Translations under genes and position numbers: made by a program
Part shown: piece after piece, positions 25,113 to 37,178 of the stretch
How positions within the stretch are numbered: the first letter of the stretch is position 1
How the letters are laid out: every line of letters starts with the position of its first letter
The notes under the pieces: model-generated
What the model was told of the DNA's origin: nothing
Databases searched by the model: none
The model's input: the letters and a program-made list of their open reading frames with translations, nothing else
Source of the DNA: Sphingobacteriaceae bacterium
GTDB taxonomy: Bacteria; Bacteroidota; Bacteroidia; B-17B0; Aurantibacillaceae
Direction of reading: 5' to 3'
DNA: 64,000 nucleotides
Assembly: GCA_002319075.1 (NCBI GenBank)
Contig: NVQB01000001.1
Coordinates: 2,232,001-2,296,000 of the forward strand

Positions 25113-25145
25113 AAAAAGCCCCGCGGATAAACATCGCGGGGCTTT
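25113..25145 (-). terminator. Terminator of the first T9SS paralog
   Basis: AAAGCCCCGCG (25115-25125) and CGCGGGGCTTT (25135-25145) form a perfect 11-bp stem; in the minus direction it is followed by a T-rich run. It lies 17 nt after the stop of the minus-strand gene that ends at 25162. Confidence 0.85.
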
Positions 25146-25161
25146 AGAACTTAAGATTAAA

Positions 25162-27801
25162 TTATTTCGTCACAATAACTTTTTGATTTATTTTTCCATT
25201 AGTATTTTGTCCCACGAGGAAATAAACGCCGCCCGCTAAATTTGTTACTAAAGCTTTAAAGTTATTTTCTGACGTAAGAGAGAGTGTTCTTACTTCTTGT
25301 CCTAGTTCATTGATAACTTTTAAAGTAATTTCTGAATCGGTGCTCACATTAAAGTCACCGTTGCTAGGATTAGGATAAACGATTACACTATTTCCTATAC
25401 CTTTTAACTCTTCGATGCCCGTGCAGGTTCTCACGTTTATGGTTACCGAGCCCGAGTTGATACAGCCATTTGCATTCATACCTGTAACAGAGTAAATGTT
25501 ATTGTTTAAGGTTGTAGGGTGTACACTCACATTGCTTGCCGTTGTACTTGCGCTATTCGTGTTCGCACTCCAGCTATAAGTTACACCACCAGAAGCCGTT
25601 AATGTAATGTTAGCATCCGTTCTGCACACTACAGTTTTTGTAGCAATAACTGTAATTGTAGGGTTACTGTTAACCGTAATAGAAATGTTTGTTGTGCTTG
25701 GACAACTTAATCCCGTAACGGTTGTACTAGCAGTTACAGTATAGACAGTAGTTGTAGCAGGACTAACCATTGCAACCCCTTGTGAAGATGGAATGCCTGT
25801 CCATGTATAAGTATTTGCGCCACTTGCCGTTAGAGTTGTGCTTAAACCCTGACAAATGCCTGTCGTTGAGGCGCTCACAGATAAATTAGTAGCAAGCGTA
25901 TTGATAGTAATCATATACTCGGCACTAGTGCAACCGTTTGTGCCAGTACCCACAACCGAATAAGTTGTTAACCCCGCAGGATTAACAAGGTTTCCCGCTG
26001 TTAAAGGTCCATTCACCCAGGCATAACTACTTGCGCCGTTCGCCGTAAGATTTACTGACCCTCCAACACAAACCAAAGTTTTTGTAGCCGCAACGGTTAA
26101 TACCGGAGCTGCTTTCGTTAATATGATTTGTCCACCATTTGCAGAACAGCCAAATGAATTAGATCCGGAAACCTGGTAATTCGTTGCTCCAACCGGTGTT
26201 ACAGAAATCACCGCACTATTAGAACCTTGACCCGTCCAGGTAAATGTGGACGCTCCACTCGCTGTTAGGGTTACTACCGAGCCGTCGCAAACTAAGCTGT
26301 TACTGGCAACCACGTTAATTGTTGGAACCGGATTTGTGTTTACCGCCACTGTTGCCGTTCCAATACAAGTGCCATCAGAGGCCGTAACCGTATATATTGT
26401 GTTAGCCTGAGGGGCTAAAGTCAGAGGGTTTGTAGCAACATTCTGAGGTGCCCAGGTATACCCGTTCACGGCAGAAACTGCTGTAAGCACTACGGTACTT
26501 CCTTGACAAACCAATGAAGAAGTTGTACTTGCTGTTACCACTAAAGGAGCAATTGTGATAGTAGCGTTAGCAGTGCTTGATCCACAACCATTTGTTCCTG
26601 TTACCGTATAAATTGTTGTTGCTATTGGAAAAAACCCAACACCATTTGTAACTGTTGTTGCTCCACCAGCCCATGAATAGGCAAGAGCTCCAGATGCAGT
26701 TAATGTAGCTGACTTTCCTACACAAATTCCGCTAGTAGCACTCGCTGTATTAACAATAGACAAAGATGGTACAGCGCCGTTTACAGTAATGCTTACGGAT
26801 GCAGAAGAATTGCATCCAGCTGTACTTGTACCCGTTACTGAATAGATGCCACTTGCACTAGGTGAAACAACAATAGATTGTGTTGTGGCTCCTGTACTCC
26901 AGGAATAATTACTTATTGCATTTGTAGTTAAAGTTACAGAGTTACCGCTGCAAAGAGAATTATTTGCCATTAACCCGGTAGCACTTAATGTAACACTGCA
27001 GAGTTCGTTAATAATCACCAAACCGTCTGCCGTGCTGGTAGGACTTGACACAAAACCTGTCTGACCGAATGCTACGGTCGTGCCATTAGCCACCCCACCA
27101 ATGTAACCTGAGCCTCCACTTTCACAACCGCCGCCGTACCAACCGCCGCCGCCGCCGCCATAGCTACCTCCACTTGAACTAGCATCCCAACCCTGGCCAA
27201 AACTAGCGCTTCCACCTGTAATAGCTGAAGTTCCTGCTGAACTCTGCGTTCCACCGGTGCAACCACTTCTGGTACTATTTCCTCCGGTTAATGCTCCACC
27301 GTCTCCAGGAGTTATACCTGTGCAACCACCTGCGCCGCCACCTGCAACTATAATAACAGCAGATGTGTTACTCGATAAGGCACTCAGAACTCCCGTTAAA
27401 GTGGCAACGTGTGAAGCCCCACCTCCGCCATTAAAGGCATAAGTGTAATATTTTCCGGGACCACCACCATTCCAACCACCTGGAACACTATTACTCGTTT
27501 GAGCCCCACCTGATCCACCAACTGATATGTAAAGAGTTGTAGTGGCAGTTAATGAGAGGGTTCCTTTTGAATATCCCCCTTTTCCTCTATACGAATTTGC
27601 ATCATTGTTGTGCCAGCCCCCAATTGCTCCCCAACAGCTTATGGAATAGTTCCCTGCCGGAAGGCTCACAGTTTGTGTACTTCCCGTGTAATTAAATGTG
27701 TAGGTTGCCTGTGAGTACACTGTACTCGAAAATAAGATCAATGCCAGTGTACATATCACTTTAATTGTTCCTGATAAGAATTTGTAGATATTTACTTTCA
27801 T
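25162..27801 (-). CDS. T9SS-sorted surface protein, Gly-rich domain plus seven Ig-like repeats (paralog 1)
   Basis: An 879-residue secreted protein. The order is: signal peptide ending STVYSQ; a glycine-rich domain (about residues 32-265) beginning TYTFNYTGSTQTVSLPAGNY and containing ISCWGAIGG, YISVGGSGG, GGGGASHV and IIVAGGGAGG, resembling the Gly_rich domain of metazoan ALK/LTK receptors; seven Ig-like repeats of about 80 residues, each with a C.G..V.LTA.GA..Y.W core; and a T9SS type A sorting domain (VIVYPNPSNGDFNV to KVIVTK). The final domain directs export and surface attachment by the type IX system. Probably an adhesin or matrix protein. The 3' two thirds are nearly identical to the next two genes. 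Confidence 0.85.
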   Translation of the reverse strand: MKVNIYKFLSGTIKVICTLALILFSSTVYSQATYTFNYTGSTQTVSLPAGNYSISCWGAIGGWHNNDANSYRGKGGYSKGTLSLTATTTLYISVGGSGGAQTSNSVPGGWNGGGPGKYYTYAFNGGGGASHVATLTGVLSALSSNTSAVIIVAGGGAGGCTGITPGDGGALTGGNSTRSGCTGGTQSSAGTSAITGGSASFGQGWDASSSGGSYGGGGGGWYGGGCESGGSGYIGGVANGTTVAFGQTGFVSSPTSTADGLVIINELCSVTLSATGLMANNSLCSGNSVTLTTNAISNYSWSTGATTQSIVVSPSASGIYSVTGTSTAGCNSSASVSITVNGAVPSLSIVNTASATSGICVGKSATLTASGALAYSWAGGATTVTNGVGFFPIATTIYTVTGTNGCGSSTANATITIAPLVVTASTTSSLVCQGSTVVLTAVSAVNGYTWAPQNVATNPLTLAPQANTIYTVTASDGTCIGTATVAVNTNPVPTINVVASNSLVCDGSVVTLTASGASTFTWTGQGSNSAVISVTPVGATNYQVSGSNSFGCSANGGQIILTKAAPVLTVAATKTLVCVGGSVNLTANGASSYAWVNGPLTAGNLVNPAGLTTYSVVGTGTNGCTSAEYMITINTLATNLSVSASTTGICQGLSTTLTASGANTYTWTGIPSSQGVAMVSPATTTVYTVTASTTVTGLSCPSTTNISITVNSNPTITVIATKTVVCRTDANITLTASGGVTYSWSANTNSASTTASNVSVHPTTLNNNIYSVTGMNANGCINSGSVTINVRTCTGIEELKGIGNSVIVYPNPSNGDFNVSTDSEITLKVINELGQEVRTLSLTSENNFKALVTNLAGGVYFLVGQNTNGKINQKVIVTK

Positions 27802-27842
27802 AGTTTCGTGGGTTATATTGTTTTTATTTTAAAGCGTTTGTT

Positions 27843-27887
27843 CTACAAATCTAATCTCTTTTAGAACTAAAAAAAGAGATTTAACAC
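27843..27887 (-). promoter_or_regulatory. Shared 45-bp promoter element, copy 1
   Basis: On the minus strand TGTTAAA-N2-TCTTTTTTTA-N6-AAAAGAG-N-TTAGATTTGT. It contains TAGATTTG (27853-27846), an exact -7 box, 44 nt before the start codon. The other two paralogs carry the same element without gaps at 30930-30974 and 33899-33943. Confidence 0.6.
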
Positions 27888-27970
27888 AGCTTTTTGATTT
27901 TATGAATTCTGGTGCTATTTATTTTTTAACTTATCCAAGGACATAGGCAAACACTTTGTCACTTATTCCA

Positions 27971-28006
27971 AAAAAAAGCCCTGCTGAAATATTTCAGCAG
28001 GGCTTT
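27971..28006 (-). terminator. Terminator of the second T9SS paralog
   Basis: A perfect 32-bp palindrome, AAAGCCCTGCTGAAAT (27975-27990) with its exact complement at 27991-28006, with seven T on the minus strand after it. It lies 15 nt after the stop codon of the gene ending at 28022. Confidence 0.88.
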
Positions 28007-28021
28007 CTTAATTAAGAAAAT

Positions 28022-30781
28022 CTATTTTGTCACAATAACCTTCTGATTTATTTTTCCAGAAGCATTTTGTCCAACAAGGAAATAAACGCCGCCTGCCAGA
28101 TTTGTTACTGAAGCTTTAAAGTTGTTTTCTTTTGTAAGAGAAAGTACTCTCACCTCTTGTCCCAGTTCATTTATAACTTTTAAAGTGATTTCTGAATCGG
28201 TACTCACATTAAACTCACCATGACTTGGATTTGGATAAACCATTACGCTGTTTCCAATACCTTTTAACTCTTCGATGCCGGTGCAGGTTTTCACGTTAAT
28301 GGTCACTGAACCAGTATTAACGCAACCATTTGCATTCATCCCTGTAACAGAGTAGATGTTGTTATTTAAGGTGGTAGGATGTACACTTACATTTCCGGAA
28401 GTTGTACTTGCACTATTTGTATTTGCACTCCAGCTATAAGTTACACCTCCAGAAGCCGTTAATGTAATGTTAGCATCGGTTCTGCACACTACAGTTTTTG
28501 TAGCAATAACTGTAATAGTGGGATTACTATTAACCGTGATAGAAATATTTGTAGTGCTTGGACAACTCAATCCTGTAACCGTTGTACTAGCCGTAACTGT
28601 GTATACGGTGGTAGTAGCAGGGCTTACCATTGCAACCCCTTGTGATGATGGAATGCCTGTCCATGTATAACTATTCGCTCCGGTAGCTGTAAGGGTTGTA
28701 CTTCCTCCTTCACAAATAGCAGTTGTTGCTGCGCTCACCGATAAATTGGTTGATAGTGTATTAATAGTAATCATATATTCTGGGCTCGGGCAACCATTTG
28801 TGCCAGTACCCACCACCGAATAAGTTGTTTGTGAAGTAGGATTAACTAGGTTGCCAGGTGTAGCTGGTCCATTTACCCAGGCGTAAGTACTTGCACCGTT
28901 AGCTGTAATGTTTACAGAGCCACCAACGCAAACTAAGGTTTTGGTTGCGGTTACCGTTAATACCGGAGCAGCTTTGGTTAATACAATCTGACCTCCATTT
29001 GAGGAGCAGCCGAAAGAATTACTCCCCGAAACCTGGTAATTCGTTGCGCCAATAGGTGTTACAGAAATCACAGCACTATTAGAACTTTGACCAGTCCACG
29101 TAAATGTTGAAGCACCACTGGCTGTTAATGTTACCACTGAGCCATCACACACTAAAGAACTGCTCGCTACAACGTTAATAGTTGGGATTGGATTAGTATT
29201 TACCGCAACCGTTGCTGTTCCAATACAGGTGCCATCCGAAGCAGTAACTGTATAAATTGTATTTGCCTGAGGCGCTAAAGTAATAGGATTGTTTGATGAA
29301 ACGATAGGAGCCCAGGTATAACCATTCACGGCAGAAGTCGCTGTGAGCACCACGGTACTTCCTTGACAAACCAATGAAGAAGTTGTACTTGCTGTTACCA
29401 CTAAAGGAGCAATTGTGATAGTAGCGTTAGCAGTGCTTGGTCCACAACCATTTGTTCCTGTTACCGTATAAATTGTTGTTGCTGTTGGAAAAAACCCAAC
29501 ACCATTTGTTACCGTTGTTGCTCCACCTGCCCAGGAATAAAATAGTGCTCCACTAGCAGTTAATGTTGCCGACTTGCCAAGACAGATCCCGGTTGTTGAA
29601 CTTGTCGTATTTGCAATAGTTAATGATGGCGCAGCTCCATTTACTGTAATACTTACGGATGCGGAAGAGTTACAGCCAGCTGTACTTGTACCGGTTACCG
29701 AATAAATGCCGCTTGAACTAGGGGAAACAACAATAGATTGAGTTGTGGCTCCGTTACTCCAGGAATAATTACTTGCGGCATTTGTAGTTAGGGTTACAGA
29801 GTTGCCACTACATAAAGAATTTCCTGCATTAAGACCTGTAGCGGATAAGCTGATACTACAAAGTTCTGTAATTAATATATAACCGTTGCCTGCAGTAACA
29901 GGATTGGTAATGAAACCGCTTTGACCAAACATGATAGTTGTAGCACTGGTTACACCACCGATGTAGGAAGAACCGCCGCCGCCGGCACCACCATCACCAC
30001 GACCGCCTCCACCACCATAATATCCGGCACCACCGCCTCCAGCATGGTCATTTCCTCCGGTAAAAGTACAGCCGCCACCGCCACCATTCCATCCACCATT
30101 GCCACCATTGCCACCCGAACCACCTCCAGCATGCATAGTTCCTGATGGTGAAGCTGCATTGGAAGTTCCATTTGCTGAACCGCCACCAAATCCATATCCA
30201 CCTGGACTTCCTCCTCCATAACTGCCTGCTGTTGCAGACCCGCCGGCACTTTGTGATCCGCCGGTAGCTGCTGATCCTGTTGAAACCTGTGAACCATCTG
30301 TGGCAGTGGCTCCAGTTAAACCTCCTCCGTCTCCGCCAGTGCTTTCTTCTCCAGAAACACTACCTGAAGTGCTACCACCTCCGCCTCCGGCTGCAATTAT
30401 AATTAAAGTGGAGTTAGATGCAGGTGCTATGTCGGACATTCCACCGCCACCGCCGCCAAGATTAGAAGCACCGGAAGCATTCCCTCCATGTCCACCAACG
30501 TAGATGTTAAATGTTGTAGTAGTTGCATTCGAATAAGTGCCTCTTGCATAGCCACCTATTCCGCCCGTTGTGGAATTTGTTCCACCAGTGGCATCTCCTC
30601 CATTAGCTCCCCAGCATTGGATTGAATAATTACCAGCAGGTAGGCTAATGGTTTGCGTACTTCCCGTATAATTAAAAGTATAAGTTGCTTGTGAATGCAT
30701 AGTAAAAGAAAATAGAGTCAATACAAGTGCGAACAATCCCTGTTTCGAACCCGATAAGAATTTGTTTAGTTTTGTTTTCAT
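28022..30781 (-). CDS. T9SS-sorted surface protein, Gly-rich domain plus seven Ig-like repeats (paralog 2)
   Basis: A 919-residue protein of the same architecture as paralog 1: signal peptide from MKTKLNKFLSGSKQ to MHSQ, glycine-rich domain (TYTFNYTGSTQTISLPAGNY, IQCWGANGGD, IYVGGHGGNA, IIIAAGGGGG), seven Ig-like repeats and a T9SS type A tail (VMVYPNPSHGEFNV). The frame is open further to an ATG at 30859, but that adds 26 residues with no signal-peptide character, and MKTKLNKFLSG aligns with the paralog 1 start. The Gly-rich part is longer than in paralog 1, with extensive GGGG runs. Expression is likely driven by the element at 30930-30974, leaving a 5' leader of roughly 140 nt, longer than in the paralogs. 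Confidence 0.85.
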   Translation of the reverse strand: MKTKLNKFLSGSKQGLFALVLTLFSFTMHSQATYTFNYTGSTQTISLPAGNYSIQCWGANGGDATGGTNSTTGGIGGYARGTYSNATTTTFNIYVGGHGGNASGASNLGGGGGGMSDIAPASNSTLIIIAAGGGGGSTSGSVSGEESTGGDGGGLTGATATDGSQVSTGSAATGGSQSAGGSATAGSYGGGSPGGYGFGGGSANGTSNAASPSGTMHAGGGSGGNGGNGGWNGGGGGCTFTGGNDHAGGGGAGYYGGGGGRGDGGAGGGGSSYIGGVTSATTIMFGQSGFITNPVTAGNGYILITELCSISLSATGLNAGNSLCSGNSVTLTTNAASNYSWSNGATTQSIVVSPSSSGIYSVTGTSTAGCNSSASVSITVNGAAPSLTIANTTSSTTGICLGKSATLTASGALFYSWAGGATTVTNGVGFFPTATTIYTVTGTNGCGPSTANATITIAPLVVTASTTSSLVCQGSTVVLTATSAVNGYTWAPIVSSNNPITLAPQANTIYTVTASDGTCIGTATVAVNTNPIPTINVVASSSLVCDGSVVTLTASGASTFTWTGQSSNSAVISVTPIGATNYQVSGSNSFGCSSNGGQIVLTKAAPVLTVTATKTLVCVGGSVNITANGASTYAWVNGPATPGNLVNPTSQTTYSVVGTGTNGCPSPEYMITINTLSTNLSVSAATTAICEGGSTTLTATGANSYTWTGIPSSQGVAMVSPATTTVYTVTASTTVTGLSCPSTTNISITVNSNPTITVIATKTVVCRTDANITLTASGGVTYSWSANTNSASTTSGNVSVHPTTLNNNIYSVTGMNANGCVNTGSVTINVKTCTGIEELKGIGNSVMVYPNPSHGEFNVSTDSEITLKVINELGQEVRVLSLTKENNFKASVTNLAGGVYFLVGQNASGKINQKVIVTK

Positions 30782-30929
30782 AGAGTAGTAGTGTTTATGA
30801 TTAATACTATTGATAGAACAAATGTCGTCGCCTAAAACAAGTAAGTTTTGGTTGTCCATTTTTCTACAGATTTTGTGTGTGTCAGGTAGTTTTGTTTCAT
30901 GTTGTAGGATTTTTGTATGTGTTAATTAT

Positions 30930-30974
30930 ATACAAATCTAAACTCTTTTCATTTTAAAAAAAGACTTTTAACAT
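30930..30974 (-). promoter_or_regulatory. Shared 45-bp promoter element, copy 2
   Basis: Same ungapped element as at 27843-27887, with the -7 box TAGATTTG at 30940-30933. It is about 150 nt upstream of the proposed start, against about 40 nt in the two other copies. Confidence 0.6.
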
Positions 30975-30999
30975 TCATGTTCGGATTTGGAGTAGAATA

Positions 31000-31031
31000 A
31001 AAAAGCCCACACAATACTATGCGCGGGCTTT
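31000..31031 (-). terminator. Terminator of the third T9SS paralog
   Basis: AAAGCCC (31002-31008) pairs with GGGCTTT (31025-31031), and the stem continues imperfectly into the loop. A T-run follows on the minus strand. It lies 21 nt after the stop of the gene that ends at 31052. Confidence 0.75.
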
Positions 31032-31051
31032 CATTATTTAAAAAACAGATC

Positions 31052-33862
31052 TTATTTCGTCACAATAACTTTCTGATTTATTTTTCCAGAAGCATTTTGT
31101 CCGGTGAGGAAATAAACACCGTTAGGTAGATTTGTTACTGAGCCTTTAAAGTTATTTTCTTTTGTAAGAGAAAGTACTCTCACTTCTTGTCCAAGTTCGT
31201 TAACAACCTTTAAAGTGATTTCTGAATCATTACTCACATTAAACTCACCATGACTTGGATTTGGATAAACCATCACGCTGTTGCCAATACCTTTTAACTC
31301 TTCGATGCCGGTGCAGGTTTTCACGTTAATGGTTACTGAACCAGTATTAATACAACCATTTGCATTCATCCCGGTAACAGAGTAGATGTTGTTGTTTAAG
31401 GTGGTAGGATGTACGCTTACATTTCCGGAAGTTGTACTTGCACTATTTGTATTTGCACTCCAGCTATAAGTCACACCACCAGAAGCCGTTAATGTAATGT
31501 TAGCATCCGTTCTGCAAACAACAGTTTTTGTAGCAATAACTGTAATTGTAGGATTACTGTTAACGGTAATAGAAATATTTGTGGTACTTGGGCAGCTTAA
31601 TCCTGTAACCGTTGTACTAGCGGTAACTGTGTAAACAGTAGTCGTAGCAGGACTTACCATTGCAACCCCTTGTGAAGATGGGATGCCTGTCCATGTATAA
31701 GTATTTGCTCCAGTAGCTGTAAGAGTTGTACTTCCCCCTTCACAAATAGCAGTTGTTGCTGCGCTCACAGATAAATTGGTTGATAGTGTATTAATAGTAA
31801 TCATATATTCTGGGCTCGGACAACCATTTGTCCCAGTACCCACCACCGAATAAGTTGTTAGCCCTGTAGGATTAACTAGGTTGCCAGGTGTAGCTGGTCC
31901 ATTTACCCAGGCGTAAGTACTTGCACCGTTAGCTGTAATGTTTACAGAGCCACCAACGCAAACTAAGGTTTTGGTTGCGGTTACCGTTAATACCGGAGCA
32001 GCTTTGGTAATTACTATTTGTGCACCATTCGAAGAACAACCAAAAGAATTACTCCCCGAAACCTGGTAATTGGTAGAACCAACAGGTGTTACAGAAATAA
32101 CAGCACTATTAGAGCTTTGACCAGTCCACGTAAATGTTGATGCACCACTGGCTGTTAATGTTACCACTGAGCCGTCACAAACCAAAGTACTGCTCGCTAC
32201 AACGTTAATAGTTGGGATTGGATTAGTATTTACCGCAACCGTTGCTGTTCCAATACAGGTGCCATCCGAAGCAGTAACTGTATAAATTGTATTTGCCTGA
32301 GGCGCTAAAGTAACAGGATTGTTTGATGAAACGATAGGAGCCCAGGTATAACCATTCACGGCAGAAGTCGCTGTAAGCACCACGGTACTTCCTTGACAAA
32401 CCAATGAAGAAGTTGTACTTGCTGTTACTACTAAAGGAGCAATTGTGATAGTTGTGCTGGCGGTACTTTGACCGCAACCATTGGTACCTGTAACTGTATA
32501 AACAGTTGTGGCTGTTGGAAAAAATCCAACACCATTGGTAACCGTTGTTGCTCCACCAGCCCAGGAATAACTAAGAGCTCCCGATGCTGTCAACGTAACA
32601 GATTTACCTACACAAATTGCAGTACTCGGTGTATTGGTGATAGCAAGCACAGGCAACCCCCCACTGACAGTTACAGTCATACTTCTTGAAGCTGTGCAGT
32701 TAGAAGCTGTTAATGCAGATACCGTATAAACAGTAGTTGCTGAAGGAGAAACAACTATCACAGAACTTGTAGTATTACCATTACTCCATGAAAAACTACT
32801 TACCCCGTTGGTTGTTAAGGTTACACTTTGACCCGAACAAATAGAAGGAGCAACGCTGCTGCTAGATCCTGAAGCCACTAAACTCATGTTACATAATTCC
32901 TGGATAATTACTGTGCCATTCCCAACACTAAAAGAAGCTGTGTTTACGGGGTTAGTACCGGCATTAAATGATCCCGCTCCACCGCCTCCTGATGCATATC
33001 CGTTAGCGCCAGATTGACCAACTCCGCCGGAATATCCGCCACCACCACCAGCTCCAAACGAACTAGAGCAATAACCATTACCACCGCTTGCTCCCCCGAA
33101 ACCTCCATCACCGGTAACATCGGTACCAGCACATCCATGATAAACAACAATTGCAGTATGAGATGCCCCACCTGTTGTAACACCGCCCACATTCCCTGAA
33201 CATTTTGCAGTGCAGCTTACTCCCGAAACAAAATCCACACCGTCTGAATACCATCCGGCTCCACCTGGATTTGCTCCGTTCCCTCCGGTTCCTGGCGTGC
33301 CATTGCCGTAAGATCCTACAGTTCCGCTTGTAGTAATAACAGCATGAGATCCATCAAATCCTGCGCCAGCTCCGCCGCCGCCGCCAGCAACGATGAGCGG
33401 TGTTGATTGTCCGTTTATCCAGACAAAACTGCCACCACCACCGCCGGTGTTATATCCGGAGGACAAATCTTCTCCTTGTTGACCAACAATAATATTAAGG
33501 ACGGATGTTCCATTTATTTGAAAATCCCCCTGCATACTCACTCCCTTTCCTCCCAAATATCCAGTAGTATTACCACCTCTGGCACCAATAGCAGTAATTC
33601 TATATAAACCTCCATTGACAGTAAATGATTGGATTCCATTACTTGCAGTAACCAAGCCCATTAAATTTGTATTAGTGTAAGAAGTATTTACCTGCGTTTG
33701 CGTTGGCCCGTACCTGCCGGTTGCACCCGCAACGTTAAAAGTATAAGTGCTTTGAGACTTGGTAGCCCCTGATAAAAAAATAGTGACTATCAAAAACAAA
33801 AATGTTTTGACTGTTATTTTTTTACCCAATCGCTGTGTGTGTGTTTGGTAATTTTTTTCCAT
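31052..33862 (-). CDS. T9SS-sorted surface protein, Gly-rich domain plus seven Ig-like repeats (paralog 3)
   Basis: A 936-residue protein, the upstream member of the tandem triplet. Its signal peptide and N-terminal domain diverge most (start MEKNYQTHTQRLG, mature start STYTFNVAGATGRYGPTQ), and its glycine-rich domain contains VNGGLYRITAIGARGG, IIVGQQGED, GGGGGSFVW and LIVAGGGGGAGAGFDG. It is followed by seven Ig-like repeats and a T9SS tail (VMVYPNPSHGEFNVSNDSEI) almost identical to paralog 2. An ATG 27 codons upstream (33943) opens the same frame, but the preferred start 33862 precedes the signal peptide and lies after the promoter element. Confidence 0.84.
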   Translation of the reverse strand: MEKNYQTHTQRLGKKITVKTFLFLIVTIFLSGATKSQSTYTFNVAGATGRYGPTQTQVNTSYTNTNLMGLVTASNGIQSFTVNGGLYRITAIGARGGNTTGYLGGKGVSMQGDFQINGTSVLNIIVGQQGEDLSSGYNTGGGGGSFVWINGQSTPLIVAGGGGGAGAGFDGSHAVITTSGTVGSYGNGTPGTGGNGANPGGAGWYSDGVDFVSGVSCTAKCSGNVGGVTTGGASHTAIVVYHGCAGTDVTGDGGFGGASGGNGYCSSSFGAGGGGGYSGGVGQSGANGYASGGGGAGSFNAGTNPVNTASFSVGNGTVIIQELCNMSLVASGSSSSVAPSICSGQSVTLTTNGVSSFSWSNGNTTSSVIVVSPSATTVYTVSALTASNCTASRSMTVTVSGGLPVLAITNTPSTAICVGKSVTLTASGALSYSWAGGATTVTNGVGFFPTATTVYTVTGTNGCGQSTASTTITIAPLVVTASTTSSLVCQGSTVVLTATSAVNGYTWAPIVSSNNPVTLAPQANTIYTVTASDGTCIGTATVAVNTNPIPTINVVASSTLVCDGSVVTLTASGASTFTWTGQSSNSAVISVTPVGSTNYQVSGSNSFGCSSNGAQIVITKAAPVLTVTATKTLVCVGGSVNITANGASTYAWVNGPATPGNLVNPTGLTTYSVVGTGTNGCPSPEYMITINTLSTNLSVSAATTAICEGGSTTLTATGANTYTWTGIPSSQGVAMVSPATTTVYTVTASTTVTGLSCPSTTNISITVNSNPTITVIATKTVVCRTDANITLTASGGVTYSWSANTNSASTTSGNVSVHPTTLNNNIYSVTGMNANGCINTGSVTINVKTCTGIEELKGIGNSVMVYPNPSHGEFNVSNDSEITLKVVNELGQEVRVLSLTKENNFKGSVTNLPNGVYFLTGQNASGKINQKVIVTK

Positions 33863-33898: not shown

Positions 33899-33943
33899 TA
33901 ACAAATCTAACCTCTTTTCTTTCTTAAAAAAGATATTTAACAA
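33899..33943 (-). promoter_or_regulatory. Shared 45-bp promoter element, copy 3
   Basis: Third ungapped copy of the element with the -7 box TAGATTTG at 33909-33902, 40 nt before the preferred start codon at 33862. Confidence 0.6.
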
Positions 33944-34103: not shown

Positions 34104-34784
34104 TTACACAAGATCAAAAGCCCGGGCATATTCAGAAAGTTCGAATGAAGACTTGATATTGAGTTTCTGATAAATGTTTTTGCGATGGGTTTTAACTGTC
34201 TCTGTGGTAATGTGAAGTTTCTCTGCGATCTTAACTGCGGTTAAACCCGTGGCAAGATTTTTCATTACCTCACGTTCTCTGTCTGACAATTTGCTGTAGT
34301 GCTTTATATTGGCGCGCAGAAAATTATTTTCTTCAAGTAAACGTGAAACTTTATGAGTAACATGATGCAATGGATCTATAGGAACAGCAAAAGTAATAGA
34401 GAGTAAAGGAAGGTTGTCTTCATCACGCAATAAAATTTTAGAAGAGCTAAGGTGCCATTCCCATTCGTGTTTGTCGGAGGGCCTTACCTGTTGAAAGAAA
34501 GAAAATATTTCATCCTCTTCGTTCTTCTGAATAAGGTCGTACATCTTTGGCACATAGTCTTTGGCGTCTTCTTCATTAAAAAATTTCTTGTGATAGTCGG
34601 CCCCAAGATTTTTGATTTTTTCAATACTCAAGCCAAGGCTTTTTACACCTCTTTCTGAAATGTATTCCACGCGTCCAAACTGGTCGCGTACATTGTGAAT
34701 AATGACTACTCCGGGAAATTGATCGGCAACTGCGCTTATTTCTGAAATCTTGTTTTCTATCTTTTTGAGCTCCATAAATACCAA
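34104..34784 (-). CDS. LuxR-type transcriptional regulator with PAS-like sensor domain
   Basis: A 226-residue regulator. The C-terminal GerE/LuxR helix-turn-helix is clear: LSDREREVMKNLATGLTAVKIAEKLHITTETVKTHRKNIYQKLNIKSSFEL (about residues 165-215). The N-terminal ~150 residues look PAS-like (GVVIIHNVRDQFGRVEYISERGVKSLG and a late strand pattern), with no receiver domain. A second ATG three codons in (MELKKIENK) is an equally good start. It lies 241 nt beyond the promoter side of the paralog array and 18 nt after the SBBP protein gene. Regulation of the surface array is possible but unproven. Confidence 0.8.
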   Translation of the reverse strand: MVFMELKKIENKISEISAVADQFPGVVIIHNVRDQFGRVEYISERGVKSLGLSIEKIKNLGADYHKKFFNEEDAKDYVPKMYDLIQKNEEDEIFSFFQQVRPSDKHEWEWHLSSSKILLRDEDNLPLLSITFAVPIDPLHHVTHKVSRLLEENNFLRANIKHYSKLSDREREVMKNLATGLTAVKIAEKLHITTETVKTHRKNIYQKLNIKSSFELSEYARAFDLV

Positions 34785-34802: not shown

Positions 34803-37178
34803 TTATTGCTTTATTAATTTTACAACTAAATTTTGGCTGCCATTAATTTTAAGATAGTATAATCCGTTAGCATAAGTAGTCAGGTCAATTTCTTCATAAT
34901 ACAGATCGTGGCTTTTAGATAAAACTAGTTTTCCGGTCGCATTGTAAATCTCCAGATTAATTTTTTCAGCAGAAGAAGATAGTTCAACATAAAAAATTCC
35001 CGAGCCTGGATTTGGAAATAGCTTAAAGTTAGTAGCATTATATGCGGTGTTTAAACCGGTGCAGTTATCTACAGTTTGTGTAAAAAAAGCCGTGGTCTTG
35101 CATCCATTGATATCACTGGCAACTACAGAATAGGTTGCATTTGTTATCGGAGCAATTTGTAGGGTAGTGCTGGTTGACAAGTCGTTCCATACGTAGAAAT
35201 CTGCTCCGCTAGCTGTGAGGCTTACATTTTCACCAGTACAAATTACGGATGATGTACTAACAATATTCACCACTGGCAAAAGATTAACAAAAATGTTCAC
35301 ACTCGATGTATTTATGCAACCATTAAGGTCTTCACCCATAAGCGAATAATTGACTGAAGCAACTGGATTTACTAAAACAGAATTTCCAACTGATCCGGTA
35401 TTCCATGTAAATGAGTTGGCTCCATAACTATTAAGCTGAATTTGATCGCCAGAACAAATTGTATCCTTGTCAGCAATTATAGTTAAAGTGGGTTGTGCAT
35501 ATACGGTAATCGTAACTGGTGTTTTTAAATTACTGGCCTCACATGTCCAAGCTTCAGCATAGTAAGTGTATATGCCCGGACTTAAATTAGCTAAATGCAA
35601 ATTCCCTCCTGTGAAAAGGACTTGTGCTCCCGTTGTATCGTACCATACTATCTCGCTTAGTCCTCCCGAAGCGGAAAGGGTTGTACTGTTTGGAAAGCAA
35701 ATAAAAGAATTGATAAGGCCAGTCGTATTGGTTGCTGATAAAGGTTTACTGCAGGATCCACCCCACTTTGTAATAAACGCATCAGTCTTTACCCCAGAGC
35801 TCAAAGAGTATACTGAAGGAAAGGGATTAAAATCGCCTGTACCCCGAAAGGCTCCTGTTGTATAAATATTTAAATGTCTATCTACCTGAATTGCTCTGGA
35901 AAATGAACTGTCTGAAAATGTTCGGGCCCATAGAAACTGCCCTGTAGAGTCAAGTTTAGCAACATATGCTCCTTCGGTGGCCGAGGCAGTATAGCTAGCA
36001 GGACCTGGATCAAAATCTGTAAGTCCGAAGAACGGACCAGTTAAATACACGTTTCCGTAATAATCAGAATCAATTATTTTATTACCCCAATAGGTGTTCC
36101 AGTTGAATACAAAATTTTTTGCCCATTTAAAATTTCCTGCTGTGTCTAACTTTAAAACAAAAAATGCTGCCCCTGAATCAGGCGATAAAGTATAAGTATT
36201 GGGCCCCGGATCAAAATCAGTAGTTCCACCAAAACTTCCATGCATATATATGTTTCCAAAGTCATCTGATTCTATTGCGTTTGAATACTCCAACCCAGAA
36301 GAAGAACCAATTTTGTGAATCCATGAAACCACACCTTGTTGACTTAATTTACATACAAAGAAATCCGTTCCTCCCTGTGCATTTAATGTATAAGAAGTTG
36401 AGCCCTGATGATATATTGTGCCGAACAAGTTGCCAGTAATGTAAACGTTACCGGAAGCCGAAAGGCTAATTGCCGTCGCATACTGAGAGCCTGGTCCGCC
36501 TATCCTGGTTGCCCAGCCAAAGTTTCCTGATGAATCTAACTTACAAACAAAAACATCATCTGAATTAGCTGATGAAAGCATGTATGTGTTAAGGTCCGGA
36601 TCAAAATCTGCTGTTGACTGAAAAGAGCCGGTAAGATAAATGTCGCCATAAGAATTAACTTCCATATAGTAGGCAGCATCATCTAATGCTCCGCCCAACC
36701 TCTTAATCCAGATAAAATTACCATTTGCATCTAGTTTACAAACAAAGGCATCAAAATACCCCGCAGAGTGAGAAGTAATAGAAAATGTACTATTACCCAT
36801 ATTAACATATGCCTGAACAAAATACCCTGCCACATAAATATTTCCAATCGCATCAAGCTTAATGGAAGAGGGATACACGTTAAAACCTTTAATTGCTTTA
36901 GCCCAAACATATGCTCCATTGGAGTCTAGTTTACTAATAAAAACATTCGACGTAGAATTATATCCAATCACATTAGCAACGCCCGGACCTGGATCACAAT
37001 CCACAGAATCTTCAAACGCTCCAAGAGTAAAAATATTTCCTACGGAGTCTGTCGTTATGGAAATCCCGGAGGCATCAGATGGCCCTCCCATACTTTTAGC
37101 CCAACGAAATGAAGGGCCTTGACTAAAAAGTTGTTGGCTCGAAATGATAATCAGAATGTAAATAATAAGCTTATTCAT
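34803..37178 (-). CDS. SBBP-repeat T9SS-sorted secreted protein
   Basis: A 791-residue exported protein. After a signal peptide (SSQQLFSQ) come about eight beta-propeller SBBP repeats of roughly 55 residues, each with a FxWAKxxGG...GNIYxTGxF pattern and a recurrent DFDPGP acidic motif that could bind Ca2+. Next are a surface-domain segment and two Ig-like repeats (DTICSGDQIQLNSYGANSFTW; SSVICTGENVSLTASGADFYVW), related to those of the paralog array. The T9SS tail is FKLFPNPGSGIFYV to LVVKLIKQ. The LuxR-type gene follows after 18 nt. Function unknown; probably surface associated. Confidence 0.83.
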   Translation of the reverse strand: MNKLIIYILIIISSQQLFSQGPSFRWAKSMGGPSDASGISITTDSVGNIFTLGAFEDSVDCDPGPGVANVIGYNSTSNVFISKLDSNGAYVWAKAIKGFNVYPSSIKLDAIGNIYVAGYFVQAYVNMGNSTFSITSHSAGYFDAFVCKLDANGNFIWIKRLGGALDDAAYYMEVNSYGDIYLTGSFQSTADFDPDLNTYMLSSANSDDVFVCKLDSSGNFGWATRIGGPGSQYATAISLSASGNVYITGNLFGTIYHQGSTSYTLNAQGGTDFFVCKLSQQGVVSWIHKIGSSSGLEYSNAIESDDFGNIYMHGSFGGTTDFDPGPNTYTLSPDSGAAFFVLKLDTAGNFKWAKNFVFNWNTYWGNKIIDSDYYGNVYLTGPFFGLTDFDPGPASYTASATEGAYVAKLDSTGQFLWARTFSDSSFSRAIQVDRHLNIYTTGAFRGTGDFNPFPSVYSLSSGVKTDAFITKWGGSCSKPLSATNTTGLINSFICFPNSTTLSASGGLSEIVWYDTTGAQVLFTGGNLHLANLSPGIYTYYAEAWTCEASNLKTPVTITVYAQPTLTIIADKDTICSGDQIQLNSYGANSFTWNTGSVGNSVLVNPVASVNYSLMGEDLNGCINTSSVNIFVNLLPVVNIVSTSSVICTGENVSLTASGADFYVWNDLSTSTTLQIAPITNATYSVVASDINGCKTTAFFTQTVDNCTGLNTAYNATNFKLFPNPGSGIFYVELSSSAEKINLEIYNATGKLVLSKSHDLYYEEIDLTTYANGLYYLKINGSQNLVVKLIKQ

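Follow-up and report, generated by a model that had tools for sequence, protein, structure and literature searches.

Three adjoining genes carry closely alike C-terminal halves behind strongly different glycine-rich N-terminal domains. The question was how this contrast arose and whether it marks a system of antigenic or phase variation. The genes lie in the window, which denotes the whole stretch of 64,000 nt that was analysed. The initial annotation attributed the pattern to recent duplication with gene conversion of the constant part and diversification of the variable part, which might allow variation by recombination between direct repeats. Genes A, B and C are three minus-strand open reading frames in tandem, with sdhCAB on one side and a LuxR-type regulator gene on the other, and all three frames are intact. 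In each, a leader is followed by a glycine-rich head of ~270–330 residues, which ends close to an ELC motif, then by Ig-like repeats that form the stalk and by a T9SS type A sorting domain (CTD). All array features given below are on the minus strand. Gene A (31052–33862) encodes 936 aa from the ATG at 33862 and was divided into an A-type head to the ELC motif (32900–33862) and a tail (31052–32899). Gene B (28022–30859) encodes 945 aa from its first ATG, although a start near 30781 is more likely; its B-type head spans 29867–30781 and its tail 28022–29866. Gene C (25162–27801), which also has a B-type head, encodes 879 aa, with the head at 27007–27801 and the tail at 25162–27006. Copies of a recurring 300-nt repeat were spaced by 2860 and 3030 nt across the array.

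The heads of B and C matched the Pfam family ALK_LTK_GRD (E=1.9e-28 for C), and the head of A alone gave no such match. This glycine-rich domain (GRD) was matched by 17 of 33 family heads, and PF12810 was present in 16 of the 25 genomes searched in the genus and in 1 of 16 others. A head profile compared with human ALK gave E=1e-38. The AlphaFold model of the B head with the first Ig domain had a mean pLDDT of 75.6. The predicted fold of this head matched the LTK/ALK glycine-rich domains with Z ~18 over 214 residues at 28% identity, and the next fold, that of phage tail and fibre proteins, reached Z ~10. The bacterial heads are therefore alike to the ALK/LTK glycine-rich domain (PDB 7nx0, 9g5i and 7mzw) in sequence profile and predicted fold. 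However, the ALK/LTK domain is borne on a receptor kinase, whereas the bacterial heads are borne on Ig repeats and a T9SS CTD.

The tails, that of B included, have Ig-like repeats that matched those of the Aureispira grappling hook protein A (GhpA), with E=3e-150 summed over 13 stretches. An Ig fold of the tails is predicted from the Pfam Ig_7 match, the sequence match to GhpA and the beta pattern of the model. GhpA (PDB 9flp and others) has Ig-like repeats in common with the tails, but it is 5898 aa long, whereas the array proteins have ~900 aa and a GRD head. A giant Ig-repeat hook of the GhpA type was rejected as a description of the array, since only the repeats are common and both length and heads differ. 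In every tail, the C-terminal T9SS type A sorting domain (Por_Secre_tail) scored above its curated threshold. The T9SS machinery was present in the same genome, with SprA at 2339 bits and a PorU-type sortase at 1196 bits, both over their cut-offs. Furthermore, ~60 relatives of the same build were found in congeneric genomes. A, B and C thus appear to be members of a genus-wide family of putative type IX-secreted surface proteins with a C-terminal sorting or anchoring domain. Judged from this architecture, the proteins are likely to serve as a repertoire of adhesins or receptors on a secreted stalk that they have in common.

The tails of A, B and C were 83–90% identical at the amino acid level, and the heads only 33–50%, which agrees with the initial description of tandem genes with alike tails and differing heads. 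In 150-nt bins, nucleotide identity of the tails was ~75–98%. The tail DNA had been called almost identical. This was overstated for C, whose tail was ~75–90% identical to those of A and B and was clearly more diverged from these two than they were from each other. The synonymous sites of the heads were near saturation (pS 0.72–0.79), and tail dS was 0.41 for A–B, 0.81 for B–C and 0.90 for A–C. Identity plotted along the genes was non-uniform, with the heads far below the tails, as the mosaic interpretation had anticipated. Moreover, tail dS was patchy and ranged from 0 to ~1.4 per 60 codons over the part common to the three genes. The onset of similarity was not at one site: B and C were alike from the first Ig domain, and A came to resemble both only at the second. 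Because the boundaries vary from pair to pair, site-specific recombination where head and tail meet was rejected.

Gene conversion of the tails was evaluated on 235 silent variable codons with 10,000 shuffles. Between A and B, 25 consecutive codons of this kind matched (p<1e-4); they lie in a tract at 32192–32371 in A and 29162–29341 in B, with 179 of 180 nt identical. For B and C the run was 14 codons (p<1e-4), in a tract at 29399–29509 in B and 26539–26649 in C, with 109 of 111 nt identical. No significant run was found between A and C in the same shuffle test. A single duplication time would not give both the patchy tail dS and the runs of silent codons, indicating that conversion took place; on this point the earlier claim was confirmed. 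Selection for a uniform stalk could have added to the tail similarity, but alone it cannot yield runs of silent identity.

The heads and tails were compared across 24 congeners of the source genome, with one genome per species. The head of B was 74.5% identical to that of a gene in the congener G001 (C1:887355–890060), and the tails of this pair were ~52.5–53% identical; the tail of B was 88–90% identical to those of its neighbours A and C. All pairs with a tail identity of at least 58% were within one genome, whereas nearly all pairs with a head identity of at least 56% were between genomes. Among the 44 testable genes, namely those in genomes with at least two family members, the nearest tail was in the same genome for 34, but the nearest head for only 7 (~5.6 when shuffled). 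A quick tree of the tails required 13 changes of genome label (minimum 9, shuffled mean 33.3), and that of the heads, which was weakly resolved, required 30 (shuffled 33.4). Three groupings were rejected by the AU test: a clade of all three array heads (p=3.8e-6), a clade joining the B and C heads (p=0.0028) and the tail of B together with that of its head-ortholog (p=5e-4). The identity profiles of seven gene sets, drawn from different species, crossed at the head/stalk junction. Paralogs within one genome were more alike than orthologs between species in the tails and not in the heads, which is the pattern of concerted evolution. For head-orthologous genes between species, dN was 0.18–0.30 in the head and 0.40–0.59 in the tail; hence, the part called constant changed faster between species. 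The heads represent distinct lineages of long standing that recur in other species. The proposed diversification of the variable part was thus contradicted in two respects: the heads predate the similarity of the tails and resemble heads of other species more than those of adjoining genes, and the inter-species head-orthologs show more change in the tail.

The stalk and CTD are homogenised within each genome, and in the window this occurs by short-tract gene conversion. Homogenisation is strongest in tandem arrays and also acts between distant loci; the median tail similarity was 66.7% for tandem genes, 51.9% for dispersed genes and 44.4% between genomes. G001 was an exception, with four dispersed short-type members whose tails were only ~43–55% alike. 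Several of the genomes are draft assemblies with contigs breaking inside tails. In G017, the contigs C5, C38 and C61 terminate within family genes, which suggests that draft assemblies break at the repeats and probably understate the length of arrays.

The history of the locus was explored through its synteny. The gene order of the window was nearly gene for gene that of G001:868000–909500. After sdhB, however, G001 has only the single B-type-head gene at C1:887355–890060, where the window has A, B, C, the LuxR-type regulator gene and a beta-propeller T9SS protein. The last two (34104–34784 and 34803–37178, respectively) adjoin the array and are both missing at the matching G001 site. At a second locus, G018 (contig 45) has an array of four genes, and G020 (contig 40) has a single gene with the same neighbours on both sides. 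The finding of an array and a single gene at each of two syntenic loci indicates that arrays grow locally, and the local duplication assumed for the window is supported by the single gene of G001 at the same site. Synteny was found for these two head-matched sets only. The other head-matched pairs had no conserved flanks in the regions searched, some of which were limited by short contigs.

Remnants of other heads were found upstream of some genes. In G001, a 109-aa open reading frame upstream of the B-type gene 3942454 (region C1:3940000–3948000) represents a truncated A-type head, of which it keeps the beginning (E=1.6e-13, with no match in 230 shuffled sequences; profile E=3e-11). A frameshifted stump 5' of G018C49_52174 gave a weak profile match (E=1.9), and its likeness to the G001 stump was judged by eye. 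Two other upstream candidates, at G009C6_56992 and G018C45_28464, matched the tail of the neighbouring gene and were discarded. Stumps of old heads upstream of genes suggest that heads were probably replaced whole at times.

The flanks of the array genes were alike. The 18-nt promoter-like box AAAAGAGNTTAGATTTGT occurred 5' of A (33901–33918), B (30932–30949) and C (27845–27862), and a genome-wide search allowing up to one mismatch returned these three sites only. Terminator-like hairpins with a T-run were read from the sequence after A (30999–31028), B (27970–28003) and C (25113–25142). The leaders of the B-type and A-type genes were unlike each other. A candidate decayed A-type leader was noted by eye, without a statistic, 5' of B at 30832–30900 (MKQNYLTHTKSVEKWTTKTYLF* versus MEKNYQTHTQRLGKKITVKTFLF in A). 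Different heads between common flanks (box, tail and hairpin) fit duplication together with head replacement. The LuxR-type regulator could control the array via the box.

These results are best explained, with good confidence, by old head lineages carried on stalks that are homogenised in each genome by conversion, with arrays growing locally, heads sometimes replaced and the repertoire remaining stable. A unit of promoter, stalk and terminator would be duplicated locally. The head between two homologous flanks would then be replaced by one of another lineage, with stumps of the old head surviving upstream of some genes. Later conversion would keep the stalks alike, and the heads, too diverged to convert, would persist as separate lineages. 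The products may be co-expressed adhesins or receptors that differ in what they bind but have an exported stalk in common, forming a stable repertoire and not an antigenic switch. One alternative is that a recent threefold copying of one gene was followed by the acquisition of foreign heads, without ongoing conversion, so that tail similarity reflects recent duplication only. The common box and tail flanking unlike heads, the old-head stumps in other species and the different leaders of A-type and B-type genes would all fit this. Nevertheless, it is improbable given the patchy synonymous divergence of the tails, the significant common runs and the boundaries that vary between pairs. Horizontal transfer of heads between species, with capture onto a resident stalk, is compatible with tail conversion and conflicts only with vertical inheritance of the heads, whose cross-species similarity would then reflect exchange and not common descent. 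The pS of the B head against G001 was 0.513, below that of all 23 syntenic neighbour gene pairs (0.573–0.852), and most other head-matched pairs were without synteny in the flanks searched. On the other hand, head-matched genes occupied the same chromosomal site at two loci, and codon bias in glycine-rich sequence may lower pS; the low value may thus denote either head exchange between lineages or codon bias. Overall, horizontal transfer is regarded as a serious but rather unlikely account. A broader scheme, in which ALK-type heads move between loci and perhaps species of Bacteroidota onto a genome-specific stalk kept uniform by conversion, is proposed only tentatively and is doubtful at present. 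If it were true, the stalk would act as a self-specific module in export, packing or anchoring, with the heads as a repertoire shared across species.

In a system of antigenic or phase variation, heads would be lost, fused or exchanged in a population through recombination at the direct repeats, and surface identity would switch as a result. The direct repeats of the array could recombine, being long and identical over as much as 143 nt, and head replacement is evident over evolutionary time. However, a search of the same genome with the heads of A and B returned only parts of long open frames, with no partial or broken donors that could serve as silent head cassettes. In the promoter and 5' coding regions, the search for slippage tracts gave only in-frame triplets and short imperfect repeats. 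A single expression site is also at odds with the sequence, as each of the three intact genes has its own promoter-like box and terminator-like hairpin. Moreover, heads at one chromosomal position have stayed alike across species. The suggested variation thus found no positive support, and this alternative is considered very unlikely.

The pattern was compared with known systems. No description of such a head/tail pattern in T9SS proteins was found in the open-access literature. For concerted evolution of paralogs in prokaryotes, one study reports 26 genes, mostly of important pathways (PMC6053082). As with the array tails, the paralogs within a genome were more alike than orthologs between species, whereas here homogenisation is restricted to the stalk half of surface proteins and the heads escape. 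The gingipain, HagA and related genes of Porphyromonas gingivalis (PMC5266723) likewise encode Bacteroidota surface proteins with a T9SS CTD, with modular adhesin domains common between genes and allele recombination. The diversity described there is among strains of one species, whereas the present comparison is across species and gave stable heads and converted stalks. The bab and hom adhesins of Helicobacter pylori (PMC4552749, PMC2795765) are likewise paralogs on the outer surface, and gene conversion has been discussed for them, but they belong to another protein family and secretion route and are studied for strain variation. The array is a clear case in which the apparently constant half is homogenised within a genome and diverges more between species, and the apparently variable half is conserved. 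Arrays with variable heads and constant tails should not be taken as antigenic variation without outgroups. In addition, the putative ALK/LTK-type glycine-rich heads on T9SS Ig stalks provide cross-species head orthologs as candidates for ligand tests.

The same pattern of diverged heads and alike tails was observed in a second, longer subfamily (~800–1160 aa). In both G001 and the source genome, members of this subfamily, which have longer heads, combine near-identical tails at distant chromosomal sites with diverged heads. The nearest tail was in the same genome for 27 of 31 genes, and the nearest head for 18 of 31. In G001, which is assembled as a single contig, genes of this subfamily 3 Mb apart had tails 98% and heads 71% alike. 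For two adjoining G001 genes of the subfamily, nucleotide identity rose from ~50% in the head to ~100% over more than 1 kb. Outside the compared families, G001 also has tandem open reading frames of ~670–680 aa with a glycine-rich domain at C1:1278351–1283301 and 2525022–2529928.
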